Source: Barnesiella sp. An22
Lineage (GTDB): Bacteria > Bacteroidota > Bacteroidia > Bacteroidales > Barnesiellaceae
DNA: 64,000 nucleotides
Direction: 5' to 3'
Assembly (NCBI RefSeq): GCF_002159975.1
Contig: NZ_NFJR01000002.1
Location: 1-64,000 of the forward strand
The position numbers and the translations under genes were made by a program. The notes beneath the pieces were generated by a model, which ran no database searches, was not told where the DNA came from, and was given only the letters and a program-made list of their open reading frames with translations. Shown here piece by piece: positions 24,059 to 35,108 of the stretch (position 1 is its first letter; every line of letters begins with the position of its first letter).

Positions 24059-24262
24059 ATGAAAGTCGAAAGTAGAAAAACAAGCTCGCTTGATTTTTAT
24101 ACTGAGACGCATCTTATCTTCGTGTAACAAAGATAATGAAAGGTGAGAGCAGAGGCAAAAAGAAAGCCAAGTTTTCATTTTTGGCTATGCCGAACCGCAT
24201 CTTGTCTTCTGCAAAGATGAGAAAGTCGAAAGTAGAAAAACAAGCCGGCTCCAGATTTTTAT
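24051..24262. repeat. Second copy of the promoter-bearing intergenic repeat family
   Basis: Subunits are A' 24051-24127, B' 24128-24211 and a partial A'' from 24212. Each opens with CAAAGAT. A' and A'' share GAAAGTCGAAAGTAGAAAAACAAG. B' shares GAAAGGTGAG.GCAGAGGCAAA and GGCTATGCCGAACCGCATC with the B subunits at 2360-2608. A-to-A spacing is 161 bp, almost the same period as the metG array. The rest of the gap to 24480 shows no gene; TAATTTCG near 24370 is a weak promoter candidate for the T9SS operon. Confidence 0.85.
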
Positions 24263-29514: not shown

Positions 29515-30621
29515 ATGACATACAATTCGATAAACATGAATATCCTGATAAAAAGCTGCCTCACCCTCGGCCTGCTGCTCTCGGTGGTGGGAGGTCAAGC
29601 GCAAGTAATCAAGAAAAGCGACTCCAACGACAGCAAAAAGCCCGACACCCAGTTGAGCGTGCGGGCCCAGTCGCTCTACGACACCCAGGATGCCTCGGAC
29701 GCCGACATCCCCTGGATGCGGGTCATCTATCGGCAAATCGACCTCACCAAAGAGAAGAATCTGCCGCTCTACTACCCCGAAGAGTCGACCGCCGATCAGG
29801 AGAACCTCTTCCGAATCATCATGAAGCTGCTGGCCAACAACCAGATAGCCGCATACGAATACCTCGACGGGCGCGAAATCTTCACCGACGAATACCGCAT
29901 CAAGGTGCGCGAGATGTTCGACCGCTTCCACATACTCTATGCCGAGGCCAAGGGCTACTCCGAGAAGAACCCCCGGTTCACCCTCGAAGAGAGCGACATC
30001 CCCGCCAACGAGGTACTCTCGTACTACATTCTGGAGAAGTGGAAATTCGACCGCCGCACCTCGCAGCTGAAACCCTCGATCGAGGCCCTCTGCCCCGTGC
30101 TGCACCGCACCGGCGACTTCGGCGGCGAGCCGGTGAAATACCCCATGTTCTGGGTCAAGTACAACGACATCCGCCCCTACATCGCCCGTCAGTATATCCT
30201 GGCCAGCAACGAGAACAACATCGCGCAGTATAACTACGACGACTACTTCCAGATGCGCATGTACGACGGCGAAATCTACAAGACCCAGAACCTCCGCAAC
30301 CAGTCGCTCATGCAGATGTACCCCAACGACTCGACGCTCAAACAGGCTCAAGACAGCATCGAGACCCAGCTGAAGAATTTCAACAAAAACCTGTGGGTAC
30401 CTACCCCCGAGGAGCTGGCCAAAGCCCGCGAAGCTCAGGAGGCCAAAGAGGCTCAGGCCAACGGCGAGGAGGTAACCACCGACAAACAGGAGAAGGCAAA
30501 AAGTACCTCGCGCTCCTCCCGAGCCAAGAAACAGAAAGAGGCCAAAGCCAAAAAGCAAAAGCAACCCAAGCAGCAAAAGACCTCATCGGCTCCTGTCCGC
30601 TCGGTACGACGAACCCGATAA
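29515..30621 (+). CDS. gldN: GldN/PorN, T9SS periplasmic ring subunit
   Basis: This protein has 368 residues from the ATG at 29515; an in-frame ATG at 29536 (MNILIKSCLTLGLLL) gives a more typical signal peptide and may be the true start. The conserved GldN body includes DADIPWMRVIYRQIDL, KNLPLYYPE and WFWVKYNDIRPYI-like PMFWVKYNDIRPY. The last 70 residues are a low-complexity Lys/Gln/Ala-rich tail, longer than I would expect. GldN binds GldK in the outer ring. It is the last gene of the operon; a terminator follows. Confidence 0.95.
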   Translation: MTYNSINMNILIKSCLTLGLLLSVVGGQAQVIKKSDSNDSKKPDTQLSVRAQSLYDTQDASDADIPWMRVIYRQIDLTKEKNLPLYYPEESTADQENLFRIIMKLLANNQIAAYEYLDGREIFTDEYRIKVREMFDRFHILYAEAKGYSEKNPRFTLEESDIPANEVLSYYILEKWKFDRRTSQLKPSIEALCPVLHRTGDFGGEPVKYPMFWVKYNDIRPYIARQYILASNENNIAQYNYDDYFQMRMYDGEIYKTQNLRNQSLMQMYPNDSTLKQAQDSIETQLKNFNKNLWVPTPEELAKAREAQEAKEAQANGEEVTTDKQEKAKSTSRSSRAKKQKEAKAKKQKQPKQQKTSSAPVRSVRRTR

Positions 30622-30632
30622 AAACCGACCTC

Positions 30633-30676
30633 CATACACCACAAAAGTCACCTCTCACCCGGGGCGACTTTTTTTG
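30633..30676 (+). terminator. gldN terminator; left copy of a 44-bp direct repeat
   Basis: CATACACCACAAAAGTC.. through the T-run forms a stem AAGTCACC/GGCGACTT with one mismatch, followed by seven T. The same 44 bases (41 identical) recur at 34076-34119. The T-run also supplies the TTTG -33 box of the next gene. Confidence 0.8.
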
Positions 30677-30703
30677 CTTTTACATATTATTTCACTAATT
30701 TTG
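30673..30703 (+). promoter_or_regulatory. Promoter of the DUF4062-like pair
   Basis: TTTG (30673-30676), 19 bases, then TAATTTTG (30696-30703) is a near-ideal Bacteroidetes promoter. The -33 box lies inside the T-tract of the preceding terminator. The start codon is 24 bases further on. Confidence 0.7.
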
Positions 30704-30726
30704 TATCATACTATTCACATCATACC

Positions 30727-31818
30727 ATGAAAACCATCAAAGTATTTATAGCCTCATCAGAGGAACTGAAGCCCGAGCGATTGGAGCTCACCTATATGAT
30801 TCAGCACCTCAACCGCATTCTCAAGCCGAAAGATGTAGAGATTGAACCCGTCAAGTGGGAATATCTCGATGCATCCATGGGCCCGCTGCACAAACAAGAA
30901 GAGTATAATCAAGAGCTAAAAAAATGCGAACTGTGCCTGGTTCTCTTTTGGACCCGCTTTGGCGACTATACCAAGAGTGAACTTGATACTGCTTATTCGG
31001 AACTATGCGCCGGACGCAACCCGCAGAAACTGTATGTCTACTTCAAAAAAGCCGAAGAGATTTCCCCCGAGCTAAAAGCCTTTAAGGAGAATTTCGCTAC
31101 AACCTATGGCCACGTCCCATGTCAATTCGATACTGTTGATGACCTAATTCTTTCTTTCCTACTTCAACTCGAAAATTATTTGGATTTGGCACCCGAAATC
31201 CAGCCTCAAGTACGCGATTCACAAGTTGAAATCGACGGGCATCCGTTTGTCGAACTTAAAAACATACCCTTTGCCGGTAACAACCCCGAATATCTGCAAC
31301 TGCTGAAGCAAATTGAAGCCACTCAAGCCCGTGTCTTGAAATATCCCGATGACTTGGATTTCCGGCAGGAACTACACGATTTACAGGAACAGCGCAAAGC
31401 GATGGAGAGCAGTCTGCTCGATATGGCCAAACACATCACGAGGCTTTCATCGACAATACCATCGGCCCATCTCACCGAGGCGATGCGGCTTTTCGAAGCA
31501 GGTGACAACAAAGGGGCCAGTATCATACTCAATCTTGATGAAACACTTCGCGATGCAGAGGAAACAGCAACTCGTTTAAATGCAATTGCAGAAATATTGG
31601 AGGAAACTCAAAAGGCTATTGAATCGAATATTGAAGAGTATCGGCTTCAAATCAAAACCTTGCAAAGCAACAAGCCCAAAGGTTGGATTGATGATGTAAT
31701 TGCGGTCTACGACAAAGCTATAACAATAGCTCGCGGTCGTATTACTCCCGAAAAATTCGCCGAACTGCTTCGAAATTATACTGAATTTCTTCAAGAGAAC
31801 CGATTGAAACAAGAATAA
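30727..31818 (+). CDS. DUF4062-like protein without TPRs (copy 1)
   Basis: This 363-residue cytoplasmic protein has an N-terminal domain (about 1-140) that follows the DUF4062 pattern, a Rossmann/TIR-like fold: KVFIASSEELKPERLEL, the Trp-Glu segment EPVKWEYLDASMG, EEYNQELKKCELCLVLFWTRFGDYTKSE, then PQKLYVYFKKAEE. A helical region follows (about 150-363, with LTEAMRLFEAGDNKGASIILN). It ends just where copy 2 begins its TPR array. DUF4062 proteins often pair this domain with NTPase or repeat sensors and are suspected in signalling or immunity; the function here is unknown. The final third is noticeably AT-richer than neighbouring genes. It has its own promoter, and copy 2 lies 95 bases downstream. 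Confidence 0.75.
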   Translation: MKTIKVFIASSEELKPERLELTYMIQHLNRILKPKDVEIEPVKWEYLDASMGPLHKQEEYNQELKKCELCLVLFWTRFGDYTKSELDTAYSELCAGRNPQKLYVYFKKAEEISPELKAFKENFATTYGHVPCQFDTVDDLILSFLLQLENYLDLAPEIQPQVRDSQVEIDGHPFVELKNIPFAGNNPEYLQLLKQIEATQARVLKYPDDLDFRQELHDLQEQRKAMESSLLDMAKHITRLSSTIPSAHLTEAMRLFEAGDNKGASIILNLDETLRDAEETATRLNAIAEILEETQKAIESNIEEYRLQIKTLQSNKPKGWIDDVIAVYDKAITIARGRITPEKFAELLRNYTEFLQENRLKQE

Positions 31819-31913
31819 AGGGACTGATAATATTTATAATAAACCGAGAGAGAAATCATTCTTAGCAATGTATTTCCCTTTCGTATAATATGATTTACTA
31901 ATCACACCCACTC

Positions 31914-34061
31914 ATGAGAACACTCAAAGTATTTATCGCTTCATCGGAGGAGCTCCGGCTCGAACGACTGGAATTTGCCGATATGATACAGCACCTTAAC
32001 CGTATTCTTAAACCTCGGGGAATAGAAATCGAACCGATAGATAATCACGAAGAATACAATCGCGAATTGAAAAACTGCGAATTGTGCCTGGTACTCTATT
32101 GGACCCGATTCGGCGACTACACCAAAAGCGAGTTCGATACGGCTTATTCGGAGCTATGCGCCGGACGCAACCCGCAGAAACTGTATGTCTATTTCAAAGA
32201 TGCCGACGAGATAACACCCGAATTAAGGGCTTTCAAGGAGAGTTTCGACACCCAATACGGACACTTCTTCTGTCGGTTCGAGAATGTCGATACCCTGAAA
32301 CTCAACTTCCTGCTCCAGTTCGAGGCATATCAAAACAAAGGTTCGGAGGCCATGCTCCAAGTACGCGATTCGCAGGTCGAAATCGACGGGCAACCCTTTG
32401 TCGAACTTAAAAACATACCCTTTGCCGGGAACAACCCCGAGTATCTGCAACTGCTGAAGCAGATTGAAGCCACACAGGCCCGTGTCTTGAAATATCCCGG
32501 TGACTTGGATTTCCGGCAAGAGTTGCACGATTTACAAGAACGACGCAAGGCGATGGAGAGCAGCCTGCTCGATACGGCCAAACTCATCACACGACTCTCG
32601 TCGACAACCACCTCGGCCCGCCTCACCGAAGCGATGCGGCTTTTCGAGGCCGGCGACAACAAGGGGGCCAATGCCATACTCAACTTGGACGAGATTACCC
32701 GGGATGCCGAAGCCAATGCAGCTCGCTTGGACGCCGTGCGCGAAATTGAATCGGAAACCCTCAAGGCCCTTGAATCGAATATCGAGGAGTATCGTTTAAA
32801 AATCAAGACATTGCAAAATGAAATGGAGAGAGGCTGGGTTGCCGAGGTAATAACCGTTTATGACAAGGCCATTGCCGTAGCCCATAACCGTATCGCCCCG
32901 GAGAAAGTGGCCGAATTGCTCCTGGATTATGCCGATTTCCTACAAAACAACAAACAATACCATTTGGTGGGTACCCTGTACGAAGAAGCGTTGACTATTT
33001 ATCGAACGCTGGCTGCACAAAATCCCGAGGCTTTCGAGAGCGATGTGGCCAGTACGCTGAACAATCTGGCTCTCTTGCATTCTGATACCCAACAGCTCGA
33101 CTGGGCGGAAAAGGAGTATATCGAGGCTCTCGAAATTTACCACCGTCTGGCCCAGAAAAATCCCGAGGCTTTCGAGAGCGATGTAGCCAGGACGCTGAAC
33201 AATCTGGCTGTCTTGCATAAAAATACCCGACGGCTCGACTTGGCGGAAAAGGAGTATAACGAAGCCCTGGAGATTCAGCGACGACTGGCCCAGAAAAATC
33301 CCGAGGCTTTCGAGAGCGATGTGGCCAGGACGCTGAACAATCTGGCGAACTTGCATTCTGATACCCAACAGCTCGATTTGGCGGAAAAGGAGTATACCGA
33401 AGCTCTGGAGATTCGACGTCGTCTGGCCCAGAAAAATCCCGAGACATTCGAGAGCGATGTGGCCAGTACGCTGAACAATCTGGCTGTCTTGCATCAGAAT
33501 ACCCAACGGCTCGACTTGGCGGAAAAGGAGTATATCGAGGCTCTCGAAATTTACCACCGTCTGGCCCAGAAAAATCCCGAGGCCTTCGAGAGCGATGTGG
33601 CCTTGACGCTGAACAATCTGGCTCTCTTGCATAAGAATACCCGACGGCTCGATTGGGCGGAAAAGGAGTATATCGAGGCTCTGGAGATTCGACGTCGTCT
33701 GGCCCAGAAAAATCCCGAGGCTTTCGAGAGCGATGTGGCCAGTACGCTGAACAATCTGGCTCTCTTGCATGACGATATCCAACGACGCGACTTGGCGGAA
33801 AAGGAGCATAACGAGGCTCTGGAGATTCGACGTCGTCTGGCCCAGAAAAATCCAGAAGCCTTCGAAAGCAAGGTGGCCAGGACGCTAATCGGTTTGGCTC
33901 TTTTGCATGCCGATACCCAACGATTCGATTTAGCCATAAAAGAACTGCAAGAGGCTTTGACTATTTACAATCGCATGGCCCAATATACCGATGTAGAACA
34001 AGAGTATATAGAAGCCATTGAATCTCTTATCAAAGAATTGCAAGAACAATCGACAGAATAA
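31914..34061 (+). CDS. DUF4062-like protein with seven TPR repeats (copy 2)
   Basis: This 715-residue paralogue of the preceding protein is collinear over about 350 residues, with one striking difference: the segment holding Trp-Glu (WEYLDASMGPLHK in copy 1) is deleted, leaving EPIDNHEEYN. The middle (about 150-260) is nearly identical in protein and DNA to copy 1, while the ends have diverged. Residues 370-691 are seven 46-residue tetratricopeptide units of kinesin-light-chain type (TLNNLALLH...DLAEKEY.EALEI..RLAQK), almost identical to each other. TPRs usually bind protein partners. It may be a sensor or scaffold for copy 1. It is probably co-transcribed, since no TAnnTTTG element was seen in the 95-base gap. 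A terminator follows. Confidence 0.78.
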   Translation: MRTLKVFIASSEELRLERLEFADMIQHLNRILKPRGIEIEPIDNHEEYNRELKNCELCLVLYWTRFGDYTKSEFDTAYSELCAGRNPQKLYVYFKDADEITPELRAFKESFDTQYGHFFCRFENVDTLKLNFLLQFEAYQNKGSEAMLQVRDSQVEIDGQPFVELKNIPFAGNNPEYLQLLKQIEATQARVLKYPGDLDFRQELHDLQERRKAMESSLLDTAKLITRLSSTTTSARLTEAMRLFEAGDNKGANAILNLDEITRDAEANAARLDAVREIESETLKALESNIEEYRLKIKTLQNEMERGWVAEVITVYDKAIAVAHNRIAPEKVAELLLDYADFLQNNKQYHLVGTLYEEALTIYRTLAAQNPEAFESDVASTLNNLALLHSDTQQLDWAEKEYIEALEIYHRLAQKNPEAFESDVARTLNNLAVLHKNTRRLDLAEKEYNEALEIQRRLAQKNPEAFESDVARTLNNLANLHSDTQQLDLAEKEYTEALEIRRRLAQKNPETFESDVASTLNNLAVLHQNTQRLDLAEKEYIEALEIYHRLAQKNPEAFESDVALTLNNLALLHKNTRRLDWAEKEYIEALEIRRRLAQKNPEAFESDVASTLNNLALLHDDIQRRDLAEKEHNEALEIRRRLAQKNPEAFESKVARTLIGLALLHADTQRFDLAIKELQEALTIYNRMAQYTDVEQEYIEAIESLIKELQEQSTE
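33021..33986 (+). repeat. Seven 138-bp tandem repeats encoding 46-residue TPR units
   Basis: Each unit starts AATCCCGAGGCTTTCGAGAG or a near variant. Units differ mainly at the helix-A/B turn (HSDTQQ, HKNTRR, HQNTQR, HDDIQR, HADTQR) and at EALEIYH/EALEIRR. The seventh is the most divergent. The homogeneity suggests recent expansion or concerted evolution. Confidence 0.9.
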
Positions 34062-34075
34062 CTTTCAGACAAGTT

Positions 34076-34119
34076 CATACACCACAAAAGTCGCCTCTTA
34101 CCGGGGGCGACTTTTTTTG
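34076..34119 (+). terminator. Terminator after copy 2; right copy of the 44-bp direct repeat
   Basis: A perfect stem AAGTCGCC/GGCGACTT followed by seven T. It is 41/44 identical to 30633-30676, beginning at the same CATACACC. Confidence 0.85.
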
Positions 34120-34247: not shown

Positions 34248-35108
34248 ATGCAAACGCCACAGAAAACAAACGAATTGAACGCCACGCCGCACCGGCAGTC
34301 CGACCTCATTCCCATCTCGTTCGATGAGCTTGTCGCCAACGACGATGCCAACCTCTGCATAGCACCCGACCAACTTACCATTATCTTGTGTACCGGGGGG
34401 CGCAAAGAGCTGCAAATCAATTTTGCCGACTATACGCTCACACCGGGCAGCCTCACGTTCATCTATCCCAACTCGATGTGGCGGCCGCTTGCAACGAGCA
34501 GCGATTTCGAGGCTCATTATTTTTCTATCCAGGGGACTTCGGCCAAGGAGTGGAACGCCTTTATCGACCTCGATACGGTATTCTCGCTCAGCTCCTACAT
34601 CGCCAAGCATCCCCACACCCAGCTTTCGCTCGACGAGACTCAGGTGATGACGCAGTACTTGAACCTGTTGAAAAGTCGCTACGAAGCGAATGCACAAGCC
34701 ATCATCATACGCTTCATTCTCTCGGCCTTTACGCTGGAGCTGAACCGAATATTCACCGCCCGGGAGAAGAGCGACCGCTCCAAAATATCGCGACAGGAAG
34801 ATATTTTGTGGAAATTTCTCACGCTCCTCAAGCAGTATCACAAGGAGGAGCGCACGGTCAACTTCTACGCCAACAAGATGTGCATATCGCCCAAACACCT
34901 TTCGTCGGTCATCAAGCAGATGAGCCACAAGACGGCTCACGAAATCATTGCCGACTTTGTGACCATGACCGCCAAACGGCTGCTGAAGACCACGACGATG
35001 AGCATTCAGGAGATTTCCGACGAACTGAACTTTGCCAACCAGTCGTTTTTCGGCAAGTTTTTCAAACAGAATACAGGCCAATCGCCCTCGGCATACCGCC
35101 GCAAATAA
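34248..35108 (+). CDS. AraC-family transcriptional regulator
   Basis: This 286-residue protein has an N-terminal cupin-like sensing region (about 20-130) and a C-terminal pair of helix-turn-helix motifs (about 185-285): NFYANKMCISPKHLSSVIKQ and the AraC signature MSIQEISDELNFANQSFFGKFF. It lies 48 bases upstream of the beta-galactosidase on the same strand, which suggests that it controls that gene. The effector is unknown. Confidence 0.92.
   Translation: MQTPQKTNELNATPHRQSDLIPISFDELVANDDANLCIAPDQLTIILCTGGRKELQINFADYTLTPGSLTFIYPNSMWRPLATSSDFEAHYFSIQGTSAKEWNAFIDLDTVFSLSSYIAKHPHTQLSLDETQVMTQYLNLLKSRYEANAQAIIIRFILSAFTLELNRIFTAREKSDRSKISRQEDILWKFLTLLKQYHKEERTVNFYANKMCISPKHLSSVIKQMSHKTAHEIIADFVTMTAKRLLKTTTMSIQEISDELNFANQSFFGKFFKQNTGQSPSAYRRK

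Follow-up and report, generated by a model that had tools for sequence, protein, structure and literature searches.

The DNA analyzed here (the window) comprises 64,000 nucleotides of Barnesiella sp. An22, positions 1-64,000 of contig NZ_NFJR01000002.1 in assembly GCF_002159975.1. It contains two adjacent paralogous genes, dufA and dufB, whose products carry a DUF4062 domain and which lie between gldN, part of a conserved type IX secretion system (T9SS) operon, and a regulator gene of the araC family. The pair is framed by two copies, T1 and T2, of a 44-bp repeat. Comparisons within the genus covered nine genomes, one per species, namely that of An22 itself (G000) and eight others, among them the sister species G007. 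The features of the locus are the following.

29515..30621, + strand: gldN, left flank (Pfam GldN, PF19841, 4.6e-59; present in 9/9 genus genomes)
30633..30676, + strand: T1, first copy of the terminator, downstream of gldN; ends in TTTG, which doubles as the candidate -33 box of dufA
30673..30703, + strand: candidate Bacteroidales promoter of dufA, TTTG-N19-TAATTTTG (consensus match, layout common to G007)
30727..31818, + strand: dufA, 363 aa, DUF4062 (TIR-like) head and helical stalk, without tetratricopeptide repeats (TPRs)
30856..30891, + strand: dufA residues 44-55, missing from dufB; predicted betaB-alphaB (BB) loop and first alphaB residues
30979..30981, + strand: dufA E85, candidate catalytic Glu near the start of alphaC (invariant in 18/18 domains)
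31914..34061, + strand: dufB, 715 aa, DUF4062 head with shortened loop, stalk and TPR array
32040..32045, + strand: dufB D43/N44, site of the 12 missing residues (domain alignments)
32130..32132, + strand: dufB E73, equivalent of dufA E85 (alignment)
32953..33942, + strand: TPR array of dufB, 138-bp (46-aa) units (repeat family D1, spacing 138; Pfam)
34076..34119, + strand: T2, terminator copy 2, 41/44 identical to T1
34248..35108, + strand: araC-family regulator, right flank; directly follows gldN in 4/8 other genus genomes

The head of dufA is recognized by Pfam as DUF4062 (PF13271) with 26 bits, above the cut-off of 24.7. The heads of dufB (20.9 bits), of the single DUF4062 gene of G007 (19.5 bits) and of a gene on contig 5 of G029, a genome from another family (19.3 bits), fall under this cut-off; dufB is tied to the DUF4062 family by its 75% identity to dufA. 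Its TPRs match Pfam strongly, and the family profile matches the TPRs of kinesin light chain in the PDB. An alignment of 18 DUF4062 domains, which is the basis of all invariance counts and of the structural model of dufA, places a tryptophan (W44) after strand betaB in 16/18 domains, the exceptions being dufB and an unlinked gene on contig 1 of G029 (G029_C1). These two genes are without the same 12 residues, which cover the predicted BB loop together with the start of alphaB. The G029 contig-1 gene (L048:10672-12225) runs off the end of its contig inside the TPR repeats. Because dufB is without the BB-loop residues and dufA is without TPRs, the two paralogues, as far as the aligned sequences tell, miss complementary parts: dufA has the loop and stops at the TPR start, and dufB has stalk and TPRs and no loop. 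This complementary split of head loop (dufA) and TPRs (dufB) is what is new here, the function of the family having already been published. Head, stalk and TPRs are united in one chain in G007 and in the contig-5 gene of G029. The 46-aa TPR units are more similar to one another within dufB (0.829) than between dufB and G007 (0.726) or within G007 (0.652); by this comparison, homogenization of the units is confined to dufB and not found in G007.

The head of dufA is predicted to adopt a TIR/NDT-like fold. A model of residues 1-160 built by AlphaFold2 on the 18 aligned domains reached a predicted local distance difference test score (pLDDT) of 86.7 and a predicted template modeling score of 0.82, confidence being low in the BB-loop stretch, and replaced an earlier, poor model based on five close sequences (pLDDT 61.2). 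It contains a predicted strand at residues 37-42 and predicted helices at 53-65 and 82-94. When this model was compared with the PDB by Foldseek, chains of CMP N-glycosidase and nucleoside deoxyribosyltransferase (NDT) came top, and TIR domains occupied ranks 7, 34 and 37. Fifteen columns are invariant across the 18 domains, including the one that holds dufA E85 and dufB E73. E85 is positioned near the start of alphaC, where TIR NAD+-hydrolyzing enzymes (NADases) have their catalytic Glu; it is the putative equivalent of that residue and of E97 in the Klebsiella DUF4062 protein KpSwz.

The repeat that frames the pair had been noticed in a sequence-only reading of the locus, which took both copies for terminators, and this description was borne out. 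The repeat search of the window returned T1 and T2 at the same coordinates, 41/44 identical (93%) and 3443 bp apart, with only the two DUF4062 paralogues between them. Each copy folds into a hairpin followed by a T run, with -12.8 kcal/mol for T1 (z -3.3) and -20.0 kcal/mol for T2 (z -5.1); one base of the stem is A in T1 and G in T2 and in the G007 copy, and T1 forms the weaker hairpin. With up to 3 mismatches, the 22-base core has two sites in the window, T1 and T2 only, compared with 0 expected in 100 shuffles. Under the same tolerance the whole An22 genome has two hairpin cores, G007 has one, downstream of gldN, and the other seven genus genomes have none. A common genome-wide terminator, which would have spoken against the cassette, is thus ruled out by the presence of the core in only one of the eight sister genomes and there only once, and among the nine genus genomes the 44-bp repeat is private to the gldN-downstream locus.

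T1 ends with TTTG, and TAATTTTG follows 19 bases downstream. The Bacteroides promoter consensus is given as TTTG / TAnnTTTG in PMC7366714, where the -33 motif is also described as not found in Flavobacterium johnsoniae. The pattern TTTG-N18..21-TAnnTTTG occurs three times on the + strand and twice on the - strand of the 64-kb window, and mononucleotide shuffles expect 0.12 per strand. G007 has the same promoter layout as dufA, with a change in the -7 box at an n position only. By its sequence, T1 seems to be a terminator that doubles as part of the candidate dufA promoter.

DNA downstream of gldN was examined in the eight other genus genomes over 12-kb stretches, two of which end at contig ends after 7.9 and 6.9 kb. 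In G004, G001, G008 and G003 (4/8), gldN is followed by an intergenic hairpin, identified by eye and folded for G004 only, and then by araC. G006 has no araC match, and beta-galactosidase comes next; G005 and G002 match neither araC nor beta-galactosidase within the stretch. In G007, gldN and araC are separated by a single full-length gene of the DUF4062-TPR type, encoding 768 aa. While gldN itself was found in all nine genomes, an insert at this site was present in two, as a pair in An22 and as a single gene in G007, which supports the proposed accessory insertion behind the conserved gldN/T9SS operon; an arrangement common to all relatives, which would have spoken against it, was not what the genus showed. 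Whole-genome matches to dufA, counted at E<=0.001, were obtained in 3/9 genus genomes (An22, G007 and G003), those of G003 being distant (31%, 33% and a partial 27%) and away from the gldN site. Among 393 genomes drawn evenly from the order, 20 had a dufA match at the same threshold; a member of the wider DUF4062 family was found in 83, above the cut-off in 71. The only close dufA matches outside the genus were the two G029 genes (64% and 70% identity), both on contigs other than the one with the G029 gldN; within the family of G029, such genes were found in one of nine genomes. A class-wide profile search matched 218/395 genomes, mostly within the TPR part, and was left out of the counts. A phage or plasmid link was considered and dropped: plasmids gave no near DNA match to the locus and one distant protein match (on an Acaryochloris plasmid, over 36% of the length of dufA), phages gave no match to the locus genes, and one scan of viral contigs yielded none that was confirmed.

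GC content at third codon positions is 0.459 in dufA and 0.588 in dufB, against 0.808 in gldN, 0.79 in gldM, 0.808 in the beta-galactosidase gene and 0.728 in araC. Synonymous divergence (dS) between dufB and the G007 gene is 0.30 in the stalk, 0.71 in the head and 0.43 over both, and that between neighboring genes of the two genomes is 0.59 (gldN), 0.66 (open reading frame (ORF) 38457), 0.94 (beta-galactosidase) and 1.08 (araC), a comparison that is rough across these genes because their codon use differs. The low third-position GC, together with a dufB/G007 stalk that is less diverged than the neighboring genes, suggests that the pair was acquired by lateral transfer. Tree comparisons, which rest on single-gene trees, grouped An22 with G004 for beta-galactosidase and araC (support 1.000 and 0.984, respectively) and with G007 for gldN (0.874). 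Since the end of gldN into T1 (30520-30656) is 89.8% identical to G007 and 72.4% to G004, T1 and the candidate dufA promoter appear to lie within the shared stretch, which was probably transferred. A recent tandem duplication in the lineage of An22 was ruled out because the dS between dufA and dufB is ~1.6 overall and a gene of another family (G029) has the same loop gap.

The G007 gene joins a dufA-type promoter and a long loop to a dufB-type body in one chain. Over the sites that differ between dufA and dufB, it matches the two in a ratio of 23:23 before nucleotide 240, its start being equally near to both, and of 24:188 after it (Fisher 2.7e-8, with 13 sites matching neither omitted and the cut point picked after the pattern had been seen). 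Crossing over between the heads of a pair in an ancestor could have produced this pattern, as might other orders of events. A search for a decayed T2 in G007 gave p 0.17 when unanchored, 100 of 522 real windows scoring equal or higher, and p 0.024 and 0.011 when anchored; an intact second terminator appears to be absent from G007, where any T2 relic would be weak at best. At the position that T2 takes in the window, between the DUF4062 gene and araC, G007 has a promoter-like repeat (TTTGCCTCTGC...ATCTTTG) in two near-identical copies (L013:4098-4214), a further copy of which lies in the window at 24159 (- strand).

The suggestion that the pair forms a modular cassette held in part. An accessory insertion, a locus-private repeat, and a single-terminator gldN-araC junction in G004 with which the flanks outside T1 and T2 align all agree with it; the layout of a pair with two terminators was not seen elsewhere. 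Excision through the 44-bp repeat is possible, and loss by this route would yield a junction of the G004 type, but G004, whose terminator is only distantly similar to both T1 and T2, may equally never have had the genes. The two terminators could be a scar, left by duplication or recombination, of a defined mobile cassette for which the repeat is the route of excision, an explanation that concerns how the pair moves and is compatible with the functional interpretation given below. The homologous flanks and the closer match of the gldN end and T1 to G007 than to G004 are in its favor, and yet no integrase was noticed among the neighboring ORFs, which were not searched systematically, the two-repeat layout is missing from the other carriers, and the statistical case for a T2 relic in G007 is weak; on this evidence we consider such a scar somewhat doubtful.

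DUF4062 is by name a domain of unknown function, to which NADase and antiphage roles are assigned in PMC13174449. There (Swarozyc, bioRxiv May 2026), DUF4062 proteins are described as TIR-like NADases with antiphage activity, their similarity to TIR and NDT domains is published, and they are shown to hydrolyze NAD+ and to confer abortive antiphage defense on E. coli. KpSwz is reported to hydrolyze NAD+ by means of an essential Glu, to act by abortive infection, to be activated by phage portal protein and to carry a winged auxiliary domain; while at rest it is locked by its BB loops, which block the active site. Swarozyc genes often, though not always, have defense neighbors: about 20% are in defense islands, and more than half are beside a defense homologue (PMC13174449). 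Now that antiphage TIR-like NADases have been described in the DUF4062 family, the immunity or conflict role that had been suggested for the pair is plausible. The dufA head resembles KpSwz in its predicted TIR/NDT fold, its candidate Glu, the helices that follow the head and a patchy spread suggesting transfer. The locus is set apart as follows: (i) dufB has a TPR array in place of the helix-turn-helix (HTH)/winged portal-binding domain of KpSwz; (ii) two adjacent paralogues, one of them without the BB-loop residues, are found here, whereas KpSwz is one protein; (iii) none of the neighbors scanned is a convincing defense gene. Since the defining auxiliary domain was looked for by Pfam scans and found in neither dufA, which ends with the stalk, nor dufB, which continues into TPRs, the pair would not be filed as Swarozyc proper. 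A second comparison is offered by proteins of the NPHP3 type, with the layout DUF4062, ATPase, TPR (PMC13174449 and Pfam names). They share DUF4062 and TPRs in one chain, and the dufB TPRs match the Pfam NPHP3 TPR model below threshold; unlike them, dufA, dufB and the G007 protein have no ATPase domain according to Pfam.

PADLOC was run on ten neighboring ORFs of the window and nine G029 neighbors. The window ORFs gave two matches, the beta-galactosidase and an ATPase that is presumably RecF-like, both taken as cross-matches, and the G029 neighbors gave none. Weak matches of dufA to LmuB (0.0024 and 0.007) and DruC (0.018), of G007 to a generic TPR model (1.6e-7) and of the two G029 genes (0.0019 and 0.0048) were not taken as assignments, and dufB had no match.

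We interpret the pair, with middling confidence, as an accessory module of the DUF4062 type that was acquired by lateral transfer, placed between the gldN terminator and araC and split into a dufA NADase and a dufB sensor. The NADase would be dufA, in which the TIR-like head is complete and sits on a helical stalk; dufB, with a head that is without the BB loop on which the activity of other bacterial TIR NADases depends, would serve as TPR sensor and scaffold. The two would co-assemble via their shared stalks, and the TPRs of dufB would bind a trigger, which in the known relative is the phage portal protein. Assembly would then align the dufA heads, leading to NAD+ hydrolysis and stopping the infected cell. 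Locus anatomy, patchy distribution, deviant composition, the transfer signal, the conserved Glu and the complementary losses are observations and the fold is a prediction; NADase activity, hetero-assembly, trigger and phage defense are inferred for the pair. A narrower version, which we hold only tentatively, is that of a paired immune receptor produced by duplication and complementary loss, in which dufB is a sensor with a silenced head and dufA an executioner without a sensor, firing only as a mixed stalk assembly; G007 carries both halves joined in one chain. In plants, RPS4 and RRS1 are paired TIR-type nucleotide-binding leucine-rich repeat (NLR) receptors that behave as a pair. The likeness, by analogy only, consists in paired TIR-domain proteins with a proposed division into sensor and executor, and their TIR structures are in the Foldseek list; they differ in belonging to other organisms and in their NLR ATPase, which is absent here, and nothing at this locus speaks for common descent or complex formation.

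Several observations weigh against the split module. The adjacency of the two genes was seen in one genome only, and the short-loop gene of G029 is without an adjoining long-loop partner. dufB keeps its Glu (E73) and might be active even though the loop is missing. The dufB-G007 dS in the head (0.71) is not below that of gldN. dufA sits on a long branch, with 80 lineage-specific changes compared with 11 in dufB, a count that is low because G007 is a close relative. The Foldseek support is weak: one match reached E<=0.001 (best 9.5e-4), and Ras-like GTPases and FMN reductases scored at similar E. The known Swarozyc system needs a different sensor domain, of the HTH/winged type. No convincing defense gene was found by PADLOC among the 10 window and 9 G029 neighbors scanned. 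Finally, the literature consulted contained no experiment on NAD or phage with any DUF4062-TPR protein, and the terms 'TPR' and 'Bacteroid' are absent from the main text of PMC13174449.

The long branch would fit a different view, namely that dufB alone is a working DUF4062-TPR sensor-effector and that dufA is a truncated leftover in the course of being lost. dufA stops at the TPR start and has many lineage-specific changes, second in number to the G029 contig-5 gene (104), and G007 and that G029 gene show that head, stalk and TPRs can make up one chain. dufA is, however, not obviously decaying: its ORF is intact, it has the common residue at 15/15 positions where the other 17 domains are invariant, and in its lineage third codon positions changed about 3-4.5 times faster than first and second positions (0.30-0.37 vs 0.08-0.13). 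Moreover, the layout of its candidate promoter is conserved in G007, and the loop is missing from dufB, not from dufA. We judge a discarded dufA unlikely.

Less probable still is a reversal of roles, with dufA as an inhibitor or tuner that caps dufB assemblies and dufB as the active enzyme, easier to fire without an autoinhibitory BB loop. The locking of the KpSwz active site by its BB loops (PMC13174449) and the retention of E73 in dufB would suit it. The loop is nevertheless needed for catalysis in two other bacterial TIR NADases: SpbK needs an intact BB loop (PMC12847820), and replacement of the BB loop in SfSTING abolished NADase activity while oligomerization was kept (PMC9402430). A regulatory or scaffolding pair tied to the T9SS/gliding operon instead of immunity is very improbable, since, although the pair sits directly behind gldN and the weak T1 stem could permit read-through from the gld genes, neither the pair nor a single such gene is present at this site in 7/9 genus genomes that keep gldN and the G029 relatives lie away from gldN.

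The value of the split module lies in its compactness as a test of how such heads are coupled to sensors: the shared stalk comes with and without TPRs, the BB-loop segment of the head is present in one protein and missing from its neighbor, and the sister species G007 adds a one-chain version. Cooperation between the two proteins would make the locus a prokaryotic equivalent of paired immune receptors; without it, the locus would still represent a DUF4062 gene that is found at different chromosomal sites and has settled behind a conserved operon.

Further DUF4062-related genes were observed along the way. An22 has a third DUF4062 gene on contig 2 near 72952 (L114:6917-10891; 1324 aa), in which DUF4062 is followed by weak ATPase, NPHP3 helical and TPR matches, a layout that by its domain matches is nephrocystin-3-like. 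A protein from another genome of the same taxonomic order, L029 (G188), has a sub-threshold DUF4062 match, then an NB-ARC ATPase and TPRs, and a weak match to the Pfam NPHP3 domain. In L030, L032 and L034, DUF4062-like heads lie beside GTPase-like sequence, as judged by eye. In L116, of this group the one scanned with Pfam, leucine-rich repeats and Roc-COR were found and DUF4062 was not (E<=0.01), although this same locus (L067) can be aligned with the head of dufA at 35%. L115:4693-6150 (G749), L038 and L045 contain a stalk-like stretch and TPRs that resemble dufB, with no Pfam match to DUF4062; the stalk-TPR unit may also be combined with different N-terminal parts.

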